Shown here piece by piece: positions 22,249-32,644 of a stretch of DNA of 59,146 bases (position 1 is its first letter; every line of letters begins with the position of its first letter). The translations under genes were made by a program, and so were the position numbers. This stretch comes from Actinomycetota bacterium (GTDB taxonomy: Bacteria > Actinomycetota > Actinomycetes > Nanopelagicales > Nanopelagicaceae): contig VGBN01000002.1 in assembly GCA_016870455.1 (NCBI GenBank), forward strand, positions 1 to 59,146, in the 5' to 3' direction. The notes beneath the pieces are model-generated. The model searched no databases and was not told the origin of the DNA. It saw only the letters and a program-made list of their open reading frames with translations.

Positions 22249-25200
22249 ATGCCTAATCCAATCGGAGCCCAAGAAACAGCCGAGAATTTTGTGCATCTTC
22301 ATGTGCACACTGAATACTCGATGCTAGATGGCGCTGCCAAAATATCAGAGTTAGTTTCAGAAGCTGCCAAACAAAATATGCCAGCAATTGCAATTACTGA
22401 TCATGGCAATGTATTTGGCGCATTTGAATTCCATAAGTTGGCAAAGGCGGCTGGGGTTAAACCAATAATTGGAATTGAAGCTTATGTTGCACCAGAGTCA
22501 AGATTTGATAAGCGCCGGGTTAAATGGGCTGAAGGTGGCGAGGATGATGTTTCAGGAGGTGGCGCATACACCCACATGACCTTGTTAGCGGAAAACAATC
22601 AAGGCTTATCCAATCTATTTAAACTCTCATCGCTAGCTTCGTTAGAAGGTTTTTACTACAAGCCACGTATGGATCAAGAGTTGCTAGCTAAATACTCAAA
22701 AGGAATCATTGCAACTACAGGTTGTCCTGCCGGTGAGATCCAAACTCGATTGCGAATGGGCGGATACAAAGAGGCGTTAAATGCAGCAGCGAAGATGCGA
22801 GATATCTTCGGTGCTGAAAATTACTTTCTAGAGGTGATGGACCACTCAATTGATATTGAAAAACGCGTACTAACAGATCTAATCAAACTCGGCAAGGAAT
22901 TGAAACTGCCTTTGTTGGCAACAAATGATTTGCACTACACCAATTACAAGGATGCAGCTGCGCATGAAGTGATGCTCTGCATTCAATCTGGGTCCACATT
23001 AGCTGACCCAAAACGATTTAAATTTGAAAACTCTGAGTTTTACTTGAAATCAGCCAGCCAAATGCGTAAATTATTTAAAGACTTACCTGAGGCCTGCGAT
23101 AACACACTCTTGATAGCGCAACGTTGCAATACCACGATGCGCGAAGGAGAAAACTTACTTCCACAATTTCGGGTACCCGCCGGCGAGAGCGAAGATAGCT
23201 GGTTGATTAAAGAGGCCAACAAGGGTTTATCTGAAAGATTAAATGGCCAGATCAGTGCTAGTTATCAAGAACGGTTGAACTTTGAATTAGATGTAATGAT
23301 CAAGATGGGATTTCCTGGCTACTTCTTGGTTGTTGCAGATCTTTGCAACCACGCACGAAAAGTTGGAATACGCGTAGGTCCAGGTAGAGGATCAGCCGCT
23401 GGCTCGTTAGTCTCATATGCATTAGGAATTACCGGATTAGATCCAATTGAGTTTGGATTGTTGTTTGAGAGATTTTTAAATCCAGAGCGAATATCAATGC
23501 CTGATATTGATTTGGATTTTGATGAACGAAGGCGTTCAGAGATGATCGCATACGCCACCGATAAATATGGCGATGATCGAGTTGCCCAGATAATCACTTA
23601 TGGAACTATTAAATCCAAGCAAGCTATAAAAGATTCAACCAGAGTATTGGGCTTTCCTTATGCACTAGGTGAACGATTAACCAAATCGCTTCCTCCTTCA
23701 GTTATGGGTAAAGATATTTCGCTTAGCGGAATATTTAATATGGATGATGACAGATATGCCGAGGCATCTGAGTTTCGAAACATTTATGAATCAGATCCAG
23801 ATTCAAAACGAATTGTAGATACTGCACTGGGAATAGAGGGACTCAAACGGCAATGGGGAGTGCATGCAGCCGGAGTGATTTTAAGCAGAGAACCATTACT
23901 TGATGTTATTCCGATCCATCGCCGTGAATCGGATGGGGCAATTATTACCCAGTTTGATATGGGTGCTTGTGAAGCAACTGGATTACTTAAGATGGATTTT
24001 CTTGGACTTAGAAATTTATCAGTCCTTGATGATTGCTTAATAAATATTGAAAAAAATTTAGGCAAAACAATAGTGCTAGAAACGCTTCCATTAAAAGATC
24101 AAAAGACCTTTGAACTATTATCAAAAGGCGACACGTTAGGGGTGTTTCAATTAGATAGTGCACCAATTAGATCACTTCTAAGATCTATGGCACCTGATAG
24201 TTTTGAGGACATTGCCGCGGTTATAGCGTTGTATCGACCAGGTCCTATGGGTGAAGACTCTCATAATAAATATGCCGATTACAAAAATGGCCGGAAGATT
24301 CCAATTGCGATTCATCCTGAATTAGATAAACCTTTAAATGAGATTTTGAAGGATACCTATGGACTGATTGTCTACCAAGAACAGGTGCTTGCCATAGCAC
24401 GTAAGGTCGCAGGATTCACATTGGGTAGAGCAGATTTATTGCGTAAAGCAATGGGTAAAAAAGACAAGAAGATTCTTGATAAAGAAAGAGTTCATTTTGA
24501 AGATGGCATGAAATCCAATGGTTTTTCAGAGGATGCTATTGAAAAACTTTGGCAAACACTTATCCCATTCTCTGATTATGCGTTCAACAGAGCTCACAGT
24601 GCAGGGTATGGCTTGCTTTCTTTTTGGACTGCTTACTTAAAAGCAAATTTTCCAACCGAGTACATGGCAGCGCTACTAACTAGTGTTCGCGATGATAAAG
24701 ATAAGAGTGCGTCGTATCTAAATGAATGTCGCCGCATGGGGATCAAAGTTTTGCCACCCGATGTAAATGAATCAGATTCTGGTTATACCCCGCGAGGTCG
24801 TGATATTCGCTATGGCCTGACTGCAATCAGGAATGTTGGTGAAAATGTTGTCGCCTCGATAATTGAAACTCGCAAAAATAAGGGTAAGTATCTAAGTTTT
24901 GGAGATTTTTTAGTAAAAGTTGATTCCTCTGTCTGTAATAAAAAAACCATCGAATCCTTGATCAAAGCAGGCGCTTTTGATTCTTTAAGCCATACACGGC
25001 GCGGCCTAATGATGGTCTACTTGGAGGCGTTAGATGCAGTTACTGAGAGCAAGCGCGCCGAGGCAATCGGCCAGTTTGACCTCTTCGGCGCCGATACATC
25101 TAGCTCAAGTATTAGTGGTATCGATCTTGATATTCCAAAAAGTGAGTGGGAAAAAATGATGTTGCTCAGTTATGAGCGAGAGATGCTGGGTTTGTACGTT

Positions 25201-25776
25201 TCAGATCATCCTCTTCTGGGCGTAGAACATGTTTTGAAATCTGTTGCGGATTTCTCAATTAGCCAATTATCTGAGGCTCCTCATGATCAAATAGTAAATA
25301 TTGGTGGATTGATTACCCAGATTCAGCGAAAGGTTTCAAAGCAAGGAACACCATGGGCGATTGTGACCGTGGAAGATTTAGAAGGAGCAGTTGATGTCTT
25401 GTTCTTCTCCAACTCCTATGCCACGCACGGAGTAAATTTATTGGAGGATCGAATTGTGGCAATTCGTGGTCGCGTTGATAAACGAGAAGAGCCACCTCGA
25501 ATCTCAGCTTTAGATCTGACTTTGCCAGATCTAAAGCAAGTTCCAACCGGCCCGTTGATTATTTCAATGCAAGCTTCTCGATGCACACCTCCCATAATTG
25601 ATCGCATGAGTGAAATCTTAAAATCACATCCAGGAGGACGAGAGGTTCACTTACGCCTAATCGATGGTGAGAAAAAAACTATTCTCAAATTAGATGAAGC
25701 TTTAAAAGTTACATCCTCACCAAGTTTAAGTGCCGATCTTAAGACTGTATTAGGCCCAGATTGTTTAGTAGTTTAA
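22249..25776 (+). CDS. dnaE: DNA polymerase III alpha subunit DnaE (DnaE1 type)
   Basis: This is the replicative polymerase subunit. The 1175 residues carry an N-terminal PHP domain (HLHVHTEYSMLDGA near 17-30), the palm with catalytic aspartates in P418-D-I-D-L-D423, the thumb and fingers, a tandem helix-hairpin-helix region and an OB fold near 990-1070. The intact PHP histidines suggest that proofreading may reside here, as known for actinobacterial DnaE1. No intein is seen. The sequence directly downstream is a priA remnant rather than the usual his operon. Confidence 0.97.
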   Translation: MPNPIGAQETAENFVHLHVHTEYSMLDGAAKISELVSEAAKQNMPAIAITDHGNVFGAFEFHKLAKAAGVKPIIGIEAYVAPESRFDKRRVKWAEGGEDDVSGGGAYTHMTLLAENNQGLSNLFKLSSLASLEGFYYKPRMDQELLAKYSKGIIATTGCPAGEIQTRLRMGGYKEALNAAAKMRDIFGAENYFLEVMDHSIDIEKRVLTDLIKLGKELKLPLLATNDLHYTNYKDAAAHEVMLCIQSGSTLADPKRFKFENSEFYLKSASQMRKLFKDLPEACDNTLLIAQRCNTTMREGENLLPQFRVPAGESEDSWLIKEANKGLSERLNGQISASYQERLNFELDVMIKMGFPGYFLVVADLCNHARKVGIRVGPGRGSAAGSLVSYALGITGLDPIEFGLLFERFLNPERISMPDIDLDFDERRRSEMIAYATDKYGDDRVAQIITYGTIKSKQAIKDSTRVLGFPYALGERLTKSLPPSVMGKDISLSGIFNMDDDRYAEASEFRNIYESDPDSKRIVDTALGIEGLKRQWGVHAAGVILSREPLLDVIPIHRRESDGAIITQFDMGACEATGLLKMDFLGLRNLSVLDDCLINIEKNLGKTIVLETLPLKDQKTFELLSKGDTLGVFQLDSAPIRSLLRSMAPDSFEDIAAVIALYRPGPMGEDSHNKYADYKNGRKIPIAIHPELDKPLNEILKDTYGLIVYQEQVLAIARKVAGFTLGRADLLRKAMGKKDKKILDKERVHFEDGMKSNGFSEDAIEKLWQTLIPFSDYAFNRAHSAGYGLLSFWTAYLKANFPTEYMAALLTSVRDDKDKSASYLNECRRMGIKVLPPDVNESDSGYTPRGRDIRYGLTAIRNVGENVVASIIETRKNKGKYLSFGDFLVKVDSSVCNKKTIESLIKAGAFDSLSHTRRGLMMVYLEALDAVTESKRAEAIGQFDLFGADTSSSSISGIDLDIPKSEWEKMMLLSYEREMLGLYVSDHPLLGVEHVLKSVADFSISQLSEAPHDQIVNIGGLITQIQRKVSKQGTPWAIVTVEDLEGAVDVLFFSNSYATHGVNLLEDRIVAIRGRVDKREEPPRISALDLTLPDLKQVPTGPLIISMQASRCTPPIIDRMSEILKSHPGGREVHLRLIDGEKKTILKLDEALKVTSSPSLSADLKTVLGPDCLVV

Positions 25777-25780
25777 GTGT

Positions 25781-26157
25781 TTTATAAAGCCAAGTGAGTT
25801 TCTGCCAGCTGTCGATATAAAAGCTGGCCAAGTTATCCAAAGTGGCTCAGGTGGGGAAAACTATTCCGGTACCCCAAAGCAGGTGATTGATTCATTTATC
25901 GCATCAGGGTGTAAGTGGATTCATCTAGTGGATTTAGATGCTGCTTATTCAAATGGTGAAAATTATGAGCTAATAAATCACTTAATCTCCAACATTAAGG
26001 TGGATGTGCAGTTATCTGGTGGTATAGCAAATCAGGTCAGCTTAGAAAAAGCTTTAGCTAGCTTCGTCAGATGGGCATTAATGGTGTGGTCGTGGGCAAA
26101 GCGTTATATACCGGTGCTCTTGACCTAACTTCAGCCTTACGCGCCTGTTATAAATAA
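25781..26157 (+). pseudogene. priA: priA (HisA/TrpF) remnant with internal deletion and frameshift
   Basis: PriA is the actinobacterial isomerase serving both histidine and tryptophan synthesis. In one frame, from about 25790, PSEFLPAVDIKAGQVIQ, WIHLVDLDAAYSNG and VDVQLSGGIANQVSLEKALAS match the first 90 or so residues of HisA/PriA. The frame then shifts near 26068, and another frame gives MGINGVVVGKALYTGALDL and stops at 26155-26157, matching the C-terminus. About 125 codons remain of roughly 240, so about one half of the barrel is missing. No start codon fits the N-terminus. This fills the only gap over 300 bases (25777-26196); a 39-base stretch to trpE follows. Confidence 0.85.
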
Positions 26158-26184
26158 GCTGCACCAGGTCGGGATTGTTTACGG

Positions 26185-26190
26185 CAGAAT
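26185..26190 (+). promoter_or_regulatory. Possible -10 box (CAGAAT) for trpE
   Basis: CAGAAT ends six bases before GTG 26197. It is one base off TAGAAT, found at the same distance before polA and the MFS gene. No leader peptide with Trp codons and no attenuator stem are visible upstream. Confidence 0.3.
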
Positions 26191-26196
26191 AGGCGA

Positions 26197-27696
26197 GTGA
26201 ATAAGGTTGGTATAACCCTTGAGAAATTCCGTGAGTATGCTCGTGATTTTAATGTTATCCCTGTCGCCAGGAAAATAATTGATAAGAATCAAACTCCACT
26301 ATCTATTTACCACAAACTAACCGAACATCGAACAGGCACATTTCTTTTAGAGTCTGCTGAATCCGGTATATGGGCTCGTTACTCTTTTATCGGTGTAAAC
26401 AGTCAAGCCACATTAACTGAAGCTAATGGGGTAGCCACTTGGATTGGAGTTATGCCAGCGGGTGCCCCAACAGGAATAGACCCACTTGAGGCACTAAAGA
26501 TCTCGACGGCACATTTAAAGTCACCAAAAATTGATGGACTGCCTCCACTTACTGGTGGCCTGGTTGGTTATTTAAGTTATGAGATTGTTCGCCGACTTGA
26601 AAAACTATCTAATCATTCTAAAAGTGATGTTTTAATTCCAGAGATTGCAATGATGCTCACATCAGATCTTGCAGTTTATGATCACCATCTGGGTGAGATA
26701 ACCTTGATAGCTAACGCAATCAACTGGGATGGCAGCTCTGAGCGGGTTGACCTCGCCTATGAAACTGCTTTAAAACGCCTAGATGCGATGGAAAGTGATT
26801 TAACAAAGCCTGATCAGGATCATTTCCCAATCCAACAAAATTCAGTATCACCTGAGTTTACTCGCAACACTACGGATGAAGGATATATATCAAAAGTTAA
26901 ATTAATCAAAGAAGAGATCAAGTCTGGCGAAGCCTTCCAAGTAGTTTTATCTCAGCGCTTTTCAATGCCCGCAGTTGCTACACCTTTTGATTTGTATCGC
27001 GTATTGCGTGATCAAAACCCGAGCCCATATATGTACCTCTTTCGGTTTAATGAAGGACTCTCAATTGTCGGCTCCAGCCCAGAGGCTTTGGTTAAAGTAA
27101 ATGGTGAAGATGTAATAATTCACCCTATTGCTGGAACTAGGGCCCGTGGTAAAGATGAATTACAGGATAAATTGATTGCAGATGAACTGCTCAGAGATCC
27201 TAAGGAAAGAGCTGAGCATTTAATGTTGGTTGATCTAGGTAGAAATGATCTTGGCAGAGTGTGTAAACCAGGAACAGTTGAGGTGACTCAATTTATGCAG
27301 ATTGAAAAATACTCGCATGTTATGCATATAGTCTCCACTGTAGTTGGAAAACTAAAGGCTAAATCAACTGCGATAGAGGCTTTGTTCTCAGTCTTTCCAG
27401 CTGGCACTTTATCAGGAGCGCCTAAACCAAGAGCTATGCAAATAATTGAGGATAATGAACCAACCCGACGAGGTGTTTATGGTGGAACCATTGGATATTT
27501 AGATTTCACGGGGAATATTGATACCTGCATTTCGATCAGAACTGCTGTAATCAAGGATGATGTTGCATATGTGCAAGCGGGTGCCGGCATTGTTGCTGAT
27601 TCAGATCCAGAATCTGAAAATCAAGAGTGTGTTAATAAAGCTGCAGCGGTGCTAGGTGCGATCGCAACTGCAAATGCCATGGTTGGCTCAAAGTGA
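26197..27696 (+). CDS. trpE: Anthranilate synthase component I TrpE
   Basis: TrpE makes anthranilate from chorismate with ammonia supplied by the TrpG glutaminase, which is not in this window. The 499 residues include the N-terminal domain with an LLES block (TFLLESAES, the usual tryptophan feedback site) and the chorismate-binding domain with blocks [38 protein letters not shown] and [10 protein letters not shown]. The start is GTG 26197. It opens a trpE-small ORF-trpC-trpB-trpA run lacking trpD and trpF. Its stop overlaps the small membrane ORF by GTGA. Confidence 0.96.
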
Positions 27697-27848
27697 AGGG
27701 TTCTATACTTGCCAGCTTACTAGTAGTCGTGGTTGCAGGATTCTTAATAATTCGTTTGAGCAAGAAGAATGTAATGAGTAAGTATGAAAAAAATCCAAAG
27801 AATAAATGGAATTCTTTGTCCCAAGGGATAGATCCCACTGATGAGTGA
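27693..27848 (+). CDS. 51-residue membrane protein, likely reduced Trp-region membrane protein
   Basis: A small gene fills the trpE-trpC gap: GTG 27693 overlaps the trpE stop (GTGA) and its stop overlaps trpC. The product has one membrane helix (about 5-23), then basic residues and a tail ending W-N-S-L-S-Q-G-I-D-P-T. From memory, the Trp-region conserved membrane protein found here in Actinobacteria is about 190 residues with several helices and ends in a similar W-x-x-L-x-x-G-x-D-P-T motif. This may be a shortened version keeping the last helix and tail. Function is unknown. Confidence 0.65.
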   Translation: MKGSILASLLVVVVAGFLIIRLSKKNVMSKYEKNPKNKWNSLSQGIDPTDE

Positions 27849-28620
27849 GTCAAATGTTCTAACTTCGATAATTGAAGGTGTGCTTGAGGATGTTGAAAAG
27901 AGAGCAAGGCCGATAAAGCAATTGCAAGATCAACTACAAGATGCACCTGTTTTAAGAGGGGCGTATCAGTCTTTGAGCAAACCTGGCATGAGATTAATTG
28001 CCGAGGTCAAACGAGCCTCCCCTAGCAAGGGGGAGTTAGCTGTAATAGAAGATCCACAATCTCTTTCTGCCAAGTACCAAGAGGGTGGTGCAGATCTAAT
28101 TAGTGTTTTAACTGAGGAGCGCAGATTTAAAGGCAGTATTGCTGATCTAATCTCAGTTCGATCAACAATAAAGTTACCGGTGCTTCGCAAGGATTTCATT
28201 GTGACTGAGTTCCAGATTTATGAATCTAGAATTTTAGGTGCTGATTTGATTTTGTTAATAGTTGCTGGACTTTCCAAATCACAACTTGAGGATTTTTATC
28301 AACTCTCTATCGAGCTAGGAATGGATGCTCTAGTCGAGGTACATGATTTGCAAGAGGCAGAAAAAGCATTAGCGATTAATGCAAGAATTATTGGCGTGAA
28401 TTCAAGAAATCTAAAAACTTTAGAGGTAAGTGATCAAGTATTTCAGAGAATACTTCCCCAGTTGCCAAAGAGTGTGATCAAGGTTGCTGAATCAGGAATT
28501 AGCAGTCGAGCTCAGGTTGAATTGGTTGAACAATTAGGCGCAAATGCGGTATTAATTGGAGAGAGTTTAGTTAGAGCGGGTAATCCAGTTCATACGATTA
28601 AAGAACTTCTAAGTCGCTAA
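27841..28620 (+). CDS. trpC: Indole-3-glycerol phosphate synthase TrpC
   Basis: TrpC closes the ring of CdRP to indole-3-glycerol phosphate. The 259-residue TIM barrel has the expected blocks: IAEVKRASPSKG (catalytic Lys), LRKDFIVTEFQIYE, GADLILLIVAGL, GVNSRNLKTLEV and VAESGISSRAQV. It starts at ATG 27841 inside the end of the small membrane ORF. It needs CdRP from TrpF or PriA; the PriA copy just upstream is broken, so the substrate must come from an enzyme encoded elsewhere, or the pathway is incomplete. Confidence 0.96.
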   Translation: MSESNVLTSIIEGVLEDVEKRARPIKQLQDQLQDAPVLRGAYQSLSKPGMRLIAEVKRASPSKGELAVIEDPQSLSAKYQEGGADLISVLTEERRFKGSIADLISVRSTIKLPVLRKDFIVTEFQIYESRILGADLILLIVAGLSKSQLEDFYQLSIELGMDALVEVHDLQEAEKALAINARIIGVNSRNLKTLEVSDQVFQRILPQLPKSVIKVAESGISSRAQVELVEQLGANAVLIGESLVRAGNPVHTIKELLSR

Positions 28621-28628
28621 CTTCCTAA

Positions 28629-28634
28629 TAAACT
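28629..28634 (+). promoter_or_regulatory. Putative -10 box (TAAACT) for a leaderless trpB transcript
   Basis: TAAACT ends six bases before ATG 28641 in the 20-base trpC-trpB gap. No Shine-Dalgarno precedes trpB. The same hexamer is found before the tRNA at 40915 and the thioesterase gene. Confidence 0.45.
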
Positions 28635-28640
28635 AACCTC

Positions 28641-29858
28641 ATGGCATCTGACAAAAAACTAGAAAACTTGGATCCAACCCTAGTTGGACACTTTGGTCCT
28701 TACGGTGGGCGATTTGTGCCGGAGGCTTTGATAGCAGCATTAGATGAATTGTCAGCCGCTCATGCATCGGCTCAGGCTGATCCGAAATTTCAGGCCGAGC
28801 TTGCTGAACTACATAAGAGCTACACAGGCCGACCAAGTATTTTGACAGAGGCTACAAGATTTTCTGAGTATGCAGGTGGAGCTCGCATATTTTTAAAGCG
28901 TGAGGATTTAAACCACACAGGTAGCCACAAAATTAATAATGTTTTGGGTCAAGCGTTGTTAACCAAAAGAATGGGTAAGAAGAGAATCATTGCAGAGACT
29001 GGTGCTGGGCAGCATGGCGTTGCATCAGCTACTGCCGCAGCATTGTTTGGACTTGAGTGCGTCGTTTATATGGGCGAGGCGGATACAAAACGCCAGGCCT
29101 TAAATGTTGCCAGAATGAAATTACTAGGTGCAACAGTTGTTCCGGTCACTCAAGGATCTAAAACCTTAAAGGATGCAATTAATGAGGCAATGCGGGATTG
29201 GGTCACAAATGTTGCAACAACTCATTACCTGCTTGGCACAGTTGCAGGCCCGCACCCATTTCCCACGATGGTGAGAGATTTTCAAAGAATCATTGGTGTT
29301 GAGGCTAAAGAACAGATTATTTCCTTGACGGGAAAGTTACCCGACGCAGTTCTTGCATGTGTGGGTGGTGGTTCAAATGCAATTGGAATTTTCCATCCAT
29401 TTATTGAGGATAAATCAGTGCGCTTGATTGGTTTAGAAGCAGGTGGCAAGGGGTTAGAGACTGGCCTGCATGCATCAACAATCTCTGGTGGAAAACCTGG
29501 TGTGTTGCATGGAACTCGTTCATATGTATTACAGGATTCCGATGGTCAAACAATTGAATCTCATTCAATCTCTGCTGGTTTGGATTATCCAGGTGTTGGA
29601 CCTGAGCATGCATACTTAAATGATATTGGTCGAGCTGAATACCGTTCAATTACTGATGATCAGGCTATGTATGCCTTTTCCTTGTTGTGTAAATCAGAGG
29701 GGATCATCCCTGCCATCGAGACGGCGCATGCACTGGCAGGTGCATTGGAAATCGGCAATGAGTTAGGAAGAGACTCAATAATTTTAATTAATTTGTCAGG
29801 TCGTGGCGACAAAGATGTTCAAACAGCAGCTGAATACTTTGGGCTGCCAAGTAAATGA
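28641..29858 (+). CDS. trpB: Tryptophan synthase beta subunit TrpB
   Basis: TrpB condenses indole and serine using PLP. The sequence has the PLP lysine in HTGSHKINN, the substrate loop ETGAGQHG, the phosphate loop [10 protein letters not shown] and the C-terminal block [12 protein letters not shown]. The 405-residue length is normal. It is the only gene of the trp run with a real gap upstream, and this gap contains a candidate promoter. The stop overlaps trpA by ATGA, as expected for subunits of one complex with a tunnel for indole. Confidence 0.97.
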
Positions 29859-30658
29859 GTAATTTGTTAAGGCAGATGTTTGATAAGGCAAGAATTGAAA
29901 ATCGAGCAGCGCTAATCGGTTATCTACCAGCTGGCTTTCCTAATCAAGGTGACTCGATAAAAATCATCAAAAATATGGTTGCCGGTGGTGTTGATGCGAT
30001 CGAAGTTGGTTTCCCATACTCAGATCCAGTAATGGATGGTCCAGTCATCCAGGCAGCATCTGAGCAGGCAATAAAAAATGGAGCAGGAGTGAAACAGGTC
30101 TTTGAGTTACTTCAAGCCACTGCTCAATTAGATGTACCTGCTATGGTGATGAGTTATTGGAGCCCAATTGAAAAATATGGTTGCGCAAATTTTGCACAGA
30201 TGGTTTCAAAGATGGGTGGAAGTGGCGTGATCACACCAGATCTAACACTTGAAGAATCAAGTGATTGGAGGCAAGAATCACAGAAAAACTCCATCGACAA
30301 CATCTACGTAGTTGCCCCTAGTACAACAGATGAACGGTTGAAGAAGGTATGTGAAAACTGTTCAGGATTTGTCTATGCAGCAAGTTTGATGGGAGTTACC
30401 GGCGCACGTGATGCAGTCTCAGGAAACGCTAAGTCATTAGTTGAACGGATTAGAAAGATAACCACCACTCCGGTTGCGGTAGGTTTAGGAGTATCAAATA
30501 AAGGGCAAGCTAAAGAGGTGGCACAGTATGCAGATGGAGTTATTGTGGGATCGGCTTTTATAAAAATAATTCAAGAGCATGGGTCGGGTCGAAAAGGGTT
30601 AAAACAAATTAAGCAATTGGCAAATGCTTTATCAGAGGGGGTTCGGGATGCTAGATAA
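29855..30658 (+). CDS. trpA: Tryptophan synthase alpha subunit TrpA
   Basis: TrpA cleaves indole-3-glycerol phosphate and passes indole to TrpB. The 267-residue barrel shows [19 protein letters not shown] with a conserved Glu and Asp, the [12 protein letters not shown] block, [12 protein letters not shown] and [13 protein letters not shown]. It overlaps trpB by ATGA and overlaps the start of the MauE-like gene by 11 bases. Confidence 0.96.
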
Positions 30659-31106
30659 ATTTAAGATGTATCAGCCCTGGATAACCTTGCTTGCAAGATT
30701 AGGACTTGGTGGAGTTCTATTGGTAGCTGGTGGTTTAAAAATTGGTAACCTACAAAAATCTGCCATGTCTGTCAGGGCATATGAGCTACTGCCAGTTGGG
30801 TTAGCTAATTTCTTAGGATACGTCCTACCTTGGATTGAAATTGGAATGGGATTACTACTTATTGTGGGAGTGTGGGTCTCAATACTTGGTTTGCTTGGAG
30901 CCCTGACGATGTTTGCCTTTGTTGTGGCTATTGCCCAAGCGTGGGCTCGAGGTCTGAGTATTGACTGTGGATGTTTTGGTGGTGGAGGACAGGTCGATCC
31001 AGAGGACACAAAATACCTTTCGAGCATACTAAGAGATATAGGTTTCATGTTATTAGGTGTTTACCTTTACTATTTCCCAAAGGGTAAATTAGGAATGGAA
31101 AAATAG
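30648..31106 (+). CDS. MauE/DoxX-like membrane protein
   Basis: This 152-residue protein has four hydrophobic helices and the motif DCGCFGGG between helices three and four, typical of MauE/DoxX proteins thought to pass electrons to periplasmic thioredoxin-like partners. ATG 30648 is preferred over the 30624 open start because GAGGGG (30635-30640) lies seven bases before it. It overlaps the end of trpA and is followed twelve bases later by a DsbA-like protein, the expected partner. Confidence 0.82.
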   Translation: MLDKFKMYQPWITLLARLGLGGVLLVAGGLKIGNLQKSAMSVRAYELLPVGLANFLGYVLPWIEIGMGLLLIVGVWVSILGLLGALTMFAFVVAIAQAWARGLSIDCGCFGGGGQVDPEDTKYLSSILRDIGFMLLGVYLYYFPKGKLGMEK

Positions 31107-31118
31107 GAGAAGTTAACA

Positions 31119-31796
31119 ATGGGATCAAGTAATTCAGGAGATAAAGGCACTCGTAATTTAGTGATTGGGATGATCTCCTTTATTGTGGTGGTTGGTGTTG
31201 TCTTCTCACTGATCAGCAACAGATCTACTTCGACCGCAGCAATTCCTGCCACCGTCTCTGAAGCCGATGGCTATGGCATTGTTTTGAATCCTGAAAAGAC
31301 TCCGGTAATTGATGTTTACCTTGATTATCAGTGTGGAGCCTGCAAGTATTTTGAAATTATTAATGGCGGGTATTTGAACGAGGTAATTGCCCAAAAGAAA
31401 GCCAAGGTAGTTTTTCACCCAATGACATTTCTAGGTCCTGAGTCAGTTCTGGCAGCAAATGCCGCAGCTTGTGCTGCTGATGAAAATGAGTTTGTAGATA
31501 TGAACCTGGCTTTGTATCAAAATCAAGCAGATCAACACAATACCGGAAAGTGGTCTAAGGAGTATCTAACTCAGTTAGGTAAATCTATCGGCATCACTTC
31601 ATCAAGTTTTGAATCTTGTGTGAGCGATGGCAAATATGTTCGTTGGACCAGTAATGTGGCGGCCGAATCGGCTAAGGCAGATGTGAACTCGACACCAACA
31701 ATATTTATTAATGGTAAAGAGTTAAACAGAGATAATGGCGAGTACGGCAATTTAGGTAAATTTAGAGCTGCGCTAGCCGCTGGCGGCGTTAACTAA
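31119..31796 (+). CDS. Membrane-anchored DsbA-like thioredoxin-fold protein
   Basis: The 225-residue protein has one N-terminal membrane anchor (about 13-33) and an outside thioredoxin domain of the DsbA type with the active site C72-G-A-C75 in VYLDYQCGACKYFE, and a cis-proline block NSTPTIFINGKEL near 190-203. A second cysteine pair (about C108 and C167) may form a structural bridge. A Shine-Dalgarno TAGGAGAAG is present upstream. With the MauE-like neighbour it probably forms a thiol oxidation system outside the membrane. Confidence 0.88.
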   Translation: MGSSNSGDKGTRNLVIGMISFIVVVGVVFSLISNRSTSTAAIPATVSEADGYGIVLNPEKTPVIDVYLDYQCGACKYFEIINGGYLNEVIAQKKAKVVFHPMTFLGPESVLAANAAACAADENEFVDMNLALYQNQADQHNTGKWSKEYLTQLGKSIGITSSSFESCVSDGKYVRWTSNVAAESAKADVNSTPTIFINGKELNRDNGEYGNLGKFRAALAAGGVN

Positions 31797-31810
31797 TTCG
31801 TAAGAGCTGA

Positions 31811-32644
31811 ATGCAGCTGTTAATCCCTAGCCCATCACAATCCACCATTTCGGCTGGGCCCTTAACGATTCATTTTTATGCATTGGGCATTCTCATTGGA
31901 ATTGCAGTAGCTATTTGGTTAGGCAGGGTTCGCTACGCCAAAGTTGGCGGAAATGCAGATGATGTATCAGAGGTGGCCATCTGGGCGGTGCCTTTTGGCA
32001 TAATTGGGGGTCGGATTTATCATGTGATCACCTCACCTGAGAAGTATTTTGGGAATGGCGCAAATCCAATTGATGCTCTTCGTATTTGGCAAGGCGGACT
32101 AGGAATTTGGGGTGCGATTTCACTTGGCGCATTTGGTGCATATTTATATTGTAGAACCCACAAAACCTCTTTAACCTACTCGCAACTATTAGATTGCTTA
32201 GCTCCAGGTGTTGTTCTAGCACAGGCAATTGGCCGAGTTGGTAATTACTTTAATCAGGAATTATTTGGAAGGCCTACCTCTCTGCCTTGGGGATTGGAGA
32301 TTGATGCTCCAAATAGACCTACTGGATATGAAACCTTTGAAACTTTCCATCCTACATTTTTGTATGAATTGATTTGGTGCCTGTTAGTCGCTTATCTACT
32401 AATCAAACTGCCAGGTTCCATCAAAAAATTAGTGACAAGGAAAGGTGACATATTCGCCCTTTATGTGCTGGCATACACTCTTGGAAGATCGTGGATAGAA
32501 ACACTTAGGATTGATGAGTCCAATCTAATCCTTGGGCTGCGCTTAAATGTTTGGGTGAGTTTAATCGTCATTGTTGCTTCAAGTGCATATCTGGTGAAAA
32601 GTAAGAACCGTGGCAATACCAAAGATCAGGCGGTTGCAAGTTAG
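31811..32644 (+). CDS. lgt: Prolipoprotein diacylglyceryl transferase Lgt
   Basis: Lgt adds diacylglycerol from phosphatidylglycerol to the lipobox cysteine of prolipoproteins, the step before LspA. The 277 residues make about seven helices and hold the signature AIGRVGNYFNQELFG (near 137-151), the early GPLTIHFYALG block with an essential His, and GGRIYHVI. It lies at the end of the trp region, as in other Actinobacteria. Its TAG stop is the first half of the TAGTAT box before the next gene. Confidence 0.96.
   Translation: MQLLIPSPSQSTISAGPLTIHFYALGILIGIAVAIWLGRVRYAKVGGNADDVSEVAIWAVPFGIIGGRIYHVITSPEKYFGNGANPIDALRIWQGGLGIWGAISLGAFGAYLYCRTHKTSLTYSQLLDCLAPGVVLAQAIGRVGNYFNQELFGRPTSLPWGLEIDAPNRPTGYETFETFHPTFLYELIWCLLVAYLLIKLPGSIKKLVTRKGDIFALYVLAYTLGRSWIETLRIDESNLILGLRLNVWVSLIVIVASSAYLVKSKNRGNTKDQAVAS

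Follow-up and report, generated by a model that had tools for sequence, protein, structure and literature searches.

The closest described counterparts of the locus reported here are the SubTrpF proteins of Actinomycetaceae. In these inhabitants of human cavities, his genes are lost and priA is kept while genomes shrink; Trp139 and Arg83 (Trp145 and Arg85 in M. tuberculosis numbering, used below) are lost, and selection is relaxed, with dN/dS of 0.146 versus 0.064 (Juarez-Vazquez et al. 2017, PMC5404923). Arg19, Arg85 and Trp145 of PriA serve the histidine substrate (PMC13055916; PMC5404923). In SubTrpF2 of Ornithinimicrobiaceae, the changes are Arg19->Gln, Arg85->Ala and Trp145->Ser, and PriA coexists with HisA (PMC13055916). 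Among acI bacteria, the acI-A and acI-C strains of one study are predicted to make all 20 amino acids (Kang et al. 2017, PMC5301498). The acI-A7 strain IMCC19121 (L134) has a bifunctional-type PriA at the orthologous locus, beside dnaE and trpE. It differs from the proteins discussed below in three ways: it belongs to a full hisD-C-B-H-priA-hisF operon, it contains Arg85 and Trp145, and it passes the bifunctional model TIGR01919.

The stretch of DNA analysed, referred to as the window, is 59,146 nucleotides long (contig VGBN01000002.1). It belongs to a 1.01 Mb assembly (G000) of 58 contigs that is 82.6% complete. Its nearest genome is SCGC AAA027-J17 (G009), which is listed as acI-B1 (PMC5962901); since acI-B is 'Ca. 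Nanopelagicus' (PMC7527133), the genus of the window is taken as 'Ca. Nanopelagicus'. The window falls in a clade with 99/97 support together with G009, in which a solo priA is intact, and G019, in which priA and trpE-C-B-A are gone; this clade thus holds dead, intact and deleted states. The congeners G005 and G014 are complete genomes. As in the Actinomycetaceae, his genes are lost, priA is kept and genomes are shrinking. In contrast to the human-associated SubTrpF bacteria, the host is free-living freshwater acI-B; also unlike them, it includes a priA that has become a pseudogene next to trp genes that are still open.

The priA remnant lies on the forward strand, within the window's longest internal stretch without an open reading frame of 100 amino acids (420 nt, 25777-26196). 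At 25784-26157, the beginning and end of a HisA/PriA gene have been brought together with a loss of about 334 nt (111 codons plus 1 nt), which alters the reading frame. Translated, the remnant reads as PriA residues 1-92 and then, in a second frame, as the last 31 residues. The front piece (25784-26059) comprises 92 codons without a stop and matches PF00977 at profile positions 3-96 of 228 (E 6e-16). The rear piece (26062-26157) consists of 31 codons plus TAA and shares 67.7% identity with residues 206-236 of the intact G009 protein; a spacer at 26158-26196 separates it from trpE. The gap, the join and the start site were placed by alignment with five intact neighbours (G009, G010, G014, G003 and G005). 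The join reads AG|CTT CGT CAG, at 26060-26062, and ATA at 25784-25786 stands in place of the ATG of the relatives. Loss of the start by a T insertion in GTGTTTT was considered and set aside; the residue alignment favours ATG->ATA at 25784. A complete two-fold HisA/PriA barrel with Asp11 and Asp175 is not encoded here: Asp11 is kept and the Asp175 region is deleted. The missing middle is absent from the rest of the assembly, where the best match has an E value of 0.09 (12.7 bits). The remnant is a pseudogene of the HisA/PriA family. A preliminary description of this DNA had recognised the joined N- and C-terminal pieces and the lack of a start codon, both of which are borne out by translation, Pfam and the alignment with intact relatives; its estimates of about 115 lost codons and a frame change near 26068 were close to the measured values.

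The remnant has a dN of 0.302 to G010, compared with 0.354 for the intact gene of G009. As it is no more diverged than an intact gene, the decay is recent; the inactivation of priA, if real, is young.

The genes on either side are intact and on the same strand. Upstream is dnaE for DNA polymerase III alpha (22249-25776; NCBIfam NF004226, 1508 bits), with 94% identity to G009 over the C-terminal 299 amino acids. Downstream are trpE for anthranilate synthase component I (26197-27696; NF010086, 740 bits against a cut-off of 693), trpC for indole-3-glycerol phosphate synthase (27841-28620; PF00218, E 1.9e-78, and NCBIfam TrpC models), which is without a TrpF domain, trpB for tryptophan synthase beta (28641-29858; TIGR00263, 616 bits) and trpA for tryptophan synthase alpha (29855-30658; TIGR00262, 245 bits). 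An intact trpD is found elsewhere in the genome (C9:23382-24368). Rfam shows no RNA elements at 25000-32000. From pairwise dN, the four trp genes combined give a branch for the window's genome about 2.4 times that of G009, and dnaE gives about 2.3 times; the trp genes are therefore not relaxed beyond the general rate. This absence of acceleration fits a recent loss of priA, but also continued use of the trp genes.

The preliminary description had placed hisD-C-B-H-priA-hisF between dnaE and trpE in relatives. This order is found in IMCC19121 (dnaE-hisD-hisC-hisB-hisH-priA-hisF-trpE), and priA-hisF-trpE recurs at more than 20 other acI loci, but it is not the arrangement in the window's own genus. 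There, 13 congeners, among them G009 and complete genomes lacking HisG and HisD, have dnaE, a solo priA and trpE in this order, though the contigs of G011 and G023 stop at priA. In six genomes, dnaE and trpE are direct neighbours and priA lies at another site. Two genomes without a priA match (G016 and G021) are not counted as losses, since both lack dnaE and have trp genes that begin at contig ends. HisG is present in two of 25 genomes of the genus and absent from the complete G005 and G014. HisD, sought in G001-G015 and in the window's genome, is found only in G001, G004, G006, G008 and G013, and thus not in G005, G009, G010, G014 or the window's genome.

The same description had read the remnant as the scar of a deleted his operon in a cell that may need histidine from outside. 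A search of the assembly (82.6% complete) finds no HisD, HisG, HisF or intact PriA, and histidine is probably needed from outside. The missing operon is thereby upheld, but it was already gone in the genus: congeners without his genes have a solo priA at the same site. The remnant therefore records a second loss, after that of the operon, and is not the operon's own deletion scar. The search also finds no second PriA or TrpF in the part of the genome that is assembled, though the missing part could contain either; two PriA copies are not seen in any congener. PF00697, the TrpF family, is found in two of 41 genomes, both outside the genus, and in none of the genus members searched. In G005, a second PF00977 match that was considered as PriA reads as a HisF-like protein instead.

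In four congeners (G004, G006, G012 and G013) his genes are located elsewhere, and dnaE, where present, lies directly beside trpE. These genomes nest among the solo-priA genomes on the dnaE tree; the his operon may have been moved or regained in them.

The solo PriAs show the residue losses known from SubTrpF. Arg85 and Trp145 are both absent in 16 of 16 PriAs from congeners in which neither HisF nor hisDCBH was found; both are kept in all four congeners with HisF or hisDCBH and in all five outgroup acI PriAs. Asp11, Asp130 and Asp175 are conserved throughout. Arg85 and Trp145 are lost in each of the 13 intact solo relatives; in the remnant, Arg85 is changed to Ala and Arg19 to Gln, and Trp145 is deleted. 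As in SubTrpF2, the G009 protein has Arg19->Gln, Arg85->Ala and Trp145->Ser, the first two of which are also those of the remnant. In contrast to SubTrpF2, Thr170 is kept, Thr105 aligns as Thr, and no HisA is found alongside. The HisA residues are missing at more than one locus, both between dnaE and trpE and at separate sites in G001, G008 and G020, a pattern suggestive of repeated loss. With the bifunctional model TIGR01919, which requires 306 bits, the G009 protein scores 199 and the outgroup enzyme 373.

Because synonymous sites are near saturation between species, dN/dS was taken from close pairs only. Values for solo priA are 0.157 (G010-G014), 0.128 (G011-G018) and 0.161 (G005-G023); those for operon priA in the outgroup are 0.055-0.066, and trpE gives 0.039 (G010-G014). 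Among intact genes in close pairs, purifying selection is weaker on solo than on operon PriA, which parallels the Actinomycetaceae (0.146 vs 0.064 there; 0.13-0.16 vs 0.055-0.066 here). The window's genome likewise has the SubTrpF combination of trp genes present with a histidine pathway absent from the assembly. As no member of the genus has a TrpF-family gene, PriA should serve tryptophan; residues and gene context together point to the solo PriAs acting as TrpF.

The remnant is probably a recently inactivated solo PriA whose sole remaining role in the lineage had been that of phosphoribosylanthranilate isomerase (TrpF). On this account, the older order was dnaE-hisD-C-B-H-priA-hisF-trpE. 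The acI-B genus lost its his genes; its priA lost the residues for the histidine substrate but survived for want of a separate trpF. Later, in the window's genome, this surviving gene was deprived of its start codon and of 334 nt from its middle, probably by an illegitimate deletion at short direct repeats. The step from PRA to CdRP has no enzyme in the assembly and the tryptophan pathway is presumably blocked there; the cell would need both tryptophan and histidine from outside, and the other trp genes would be lost later, following G002 and G019. If the lost activity is TrpF, tryptophan and not histidine is the newly affected pathway, and the lineage looks to be caught at the first step of losing tryptophan synthesis too.

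An assembly or strain-mixture artefact, with an erroneous consensus at this point hiding an intact solo priA in the population, is unlikely. In its favour are the incomplete assembly of 58 contigs and the intact solo priA usual in the clade; however, a single gene here carries two independent lesions (a start substitution and a deletion) between open dnaE and trpE-C-B-A genes, its middle is on no other contig, and two other congeners show independent losses at the same locus. It is a little less probable still that priA was lost while the trp genes are in use, with another enzyme performing the TrpF step or a late intermediate (e.g. indole) being taken up. The intact state of trpE, C, B, A and D would agree with this, as would their lack of acceleration compared with dnaE; selection would then be keeping an operon without its middle step. 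Recent loss of priA explains the same intact genes, though, no candidate isomerase was found, and G002 and G019 have lost the trp block altogether. The chance that the remnant is the his-operon deletion itself, with operon and priA lost in one history to leave a histidine auxotroph, is very slight. The outgroup order of dnaE, his operon and trpE is real and his genes are not found here, but the nearest relatives lack his genes and yet have an intact priA at exactly this site; moreover, the remnant already has Arg19->Gln and Arg85->Ala, like those relatives, and the tree contradicts a split of the window's lineage before his loss.

A further proposal of the preliminary description concerns only how the deletion arose and is compatible with inactivation of a solo PriA: homologous recombination between the two PriA half-barrels. 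The join does lie within 11 nt of the half-barrel register (334 nt deleted, register 345 nt). A margin of +/-12 nt spans about 9% of the spacings examined, however, which makes this a mild coincidence, and the deletion neither matches the register nor preserves the frame. In four relatives, the SGG-anchored half-barrel segments share just 18-28 of 66 nt, and a direct repeat of 3-7 nt would suffice for a deletion. Half-barrel recombination is accordingly very improbable, and the simplest guess is that a short direct repeat mediated the deletion.

Later steps of loss are seen in two congeners. In G002 (L039/L128, G002:C42), the front of priA is joined in frame to the tail of trpA; the intact trpA of the window thus corresponds at its tail to the other end of this deletion. 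The G002 front piece has Asp11->Gly and a further small internal deletion. At this locus, trpE, trpC, trpB and most of trpA are gone, and trpE and trpC are not found elsewhere in the genome. In G019 (L114/L138, G019:C7), about 200 nt separate dnaE from the MauE gene, whose usual place is after trpA, and priA and trpE-C-B-A are lost. No trpC match turns up in the G019 genome, and the only trpE match is a distant homologue; the trpD of G019 scores lower than those of congeners (250 vs about 350 bits). The dead priA of G002 is independent of that of the window, and the left breakpoints of the two are no more than a few codons apart.

Actinomycetaceae already provide examples of the process; what is new, as far as the searched literature shows, is the lineage and the intermediate state. 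Stepwise pathway loss through one shared enzyme is hereby extended from human-associated Actinomycetaceae to a very abundant freshwater group. A single genus contains every stage: his and trp genes present; his genes lost and PriA kept; PriA dead with trp genes intact; and the trp block deleted. The order of pathway loss is now directly testable, as is whether amino-acid dependence on neighbours starts at the shared enzyme.

Other isolated his genes occur in the genus. In G008 (L041) and G020 (L024), a lone histidinol dehydrogenase lies beside AA_permease_2, and hisG and hisF are not found in these genomes; the pair perhaps serves histidinol uptake and oxidation. In the complete genome G001 (L040, G001:C1), a solo priA has an inositol-monophosphatase-like gene before it, the same neighbour that the G006 his operon has; the HisA residues of this priA were lost independently, and an orphan hisD lies 48 kb away. 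G005 (L038, C1:1127820-1128065) contains an extra HisF-like fragment, perhaps of the WbuZ/HisF2 kind, away from his and trp genes.
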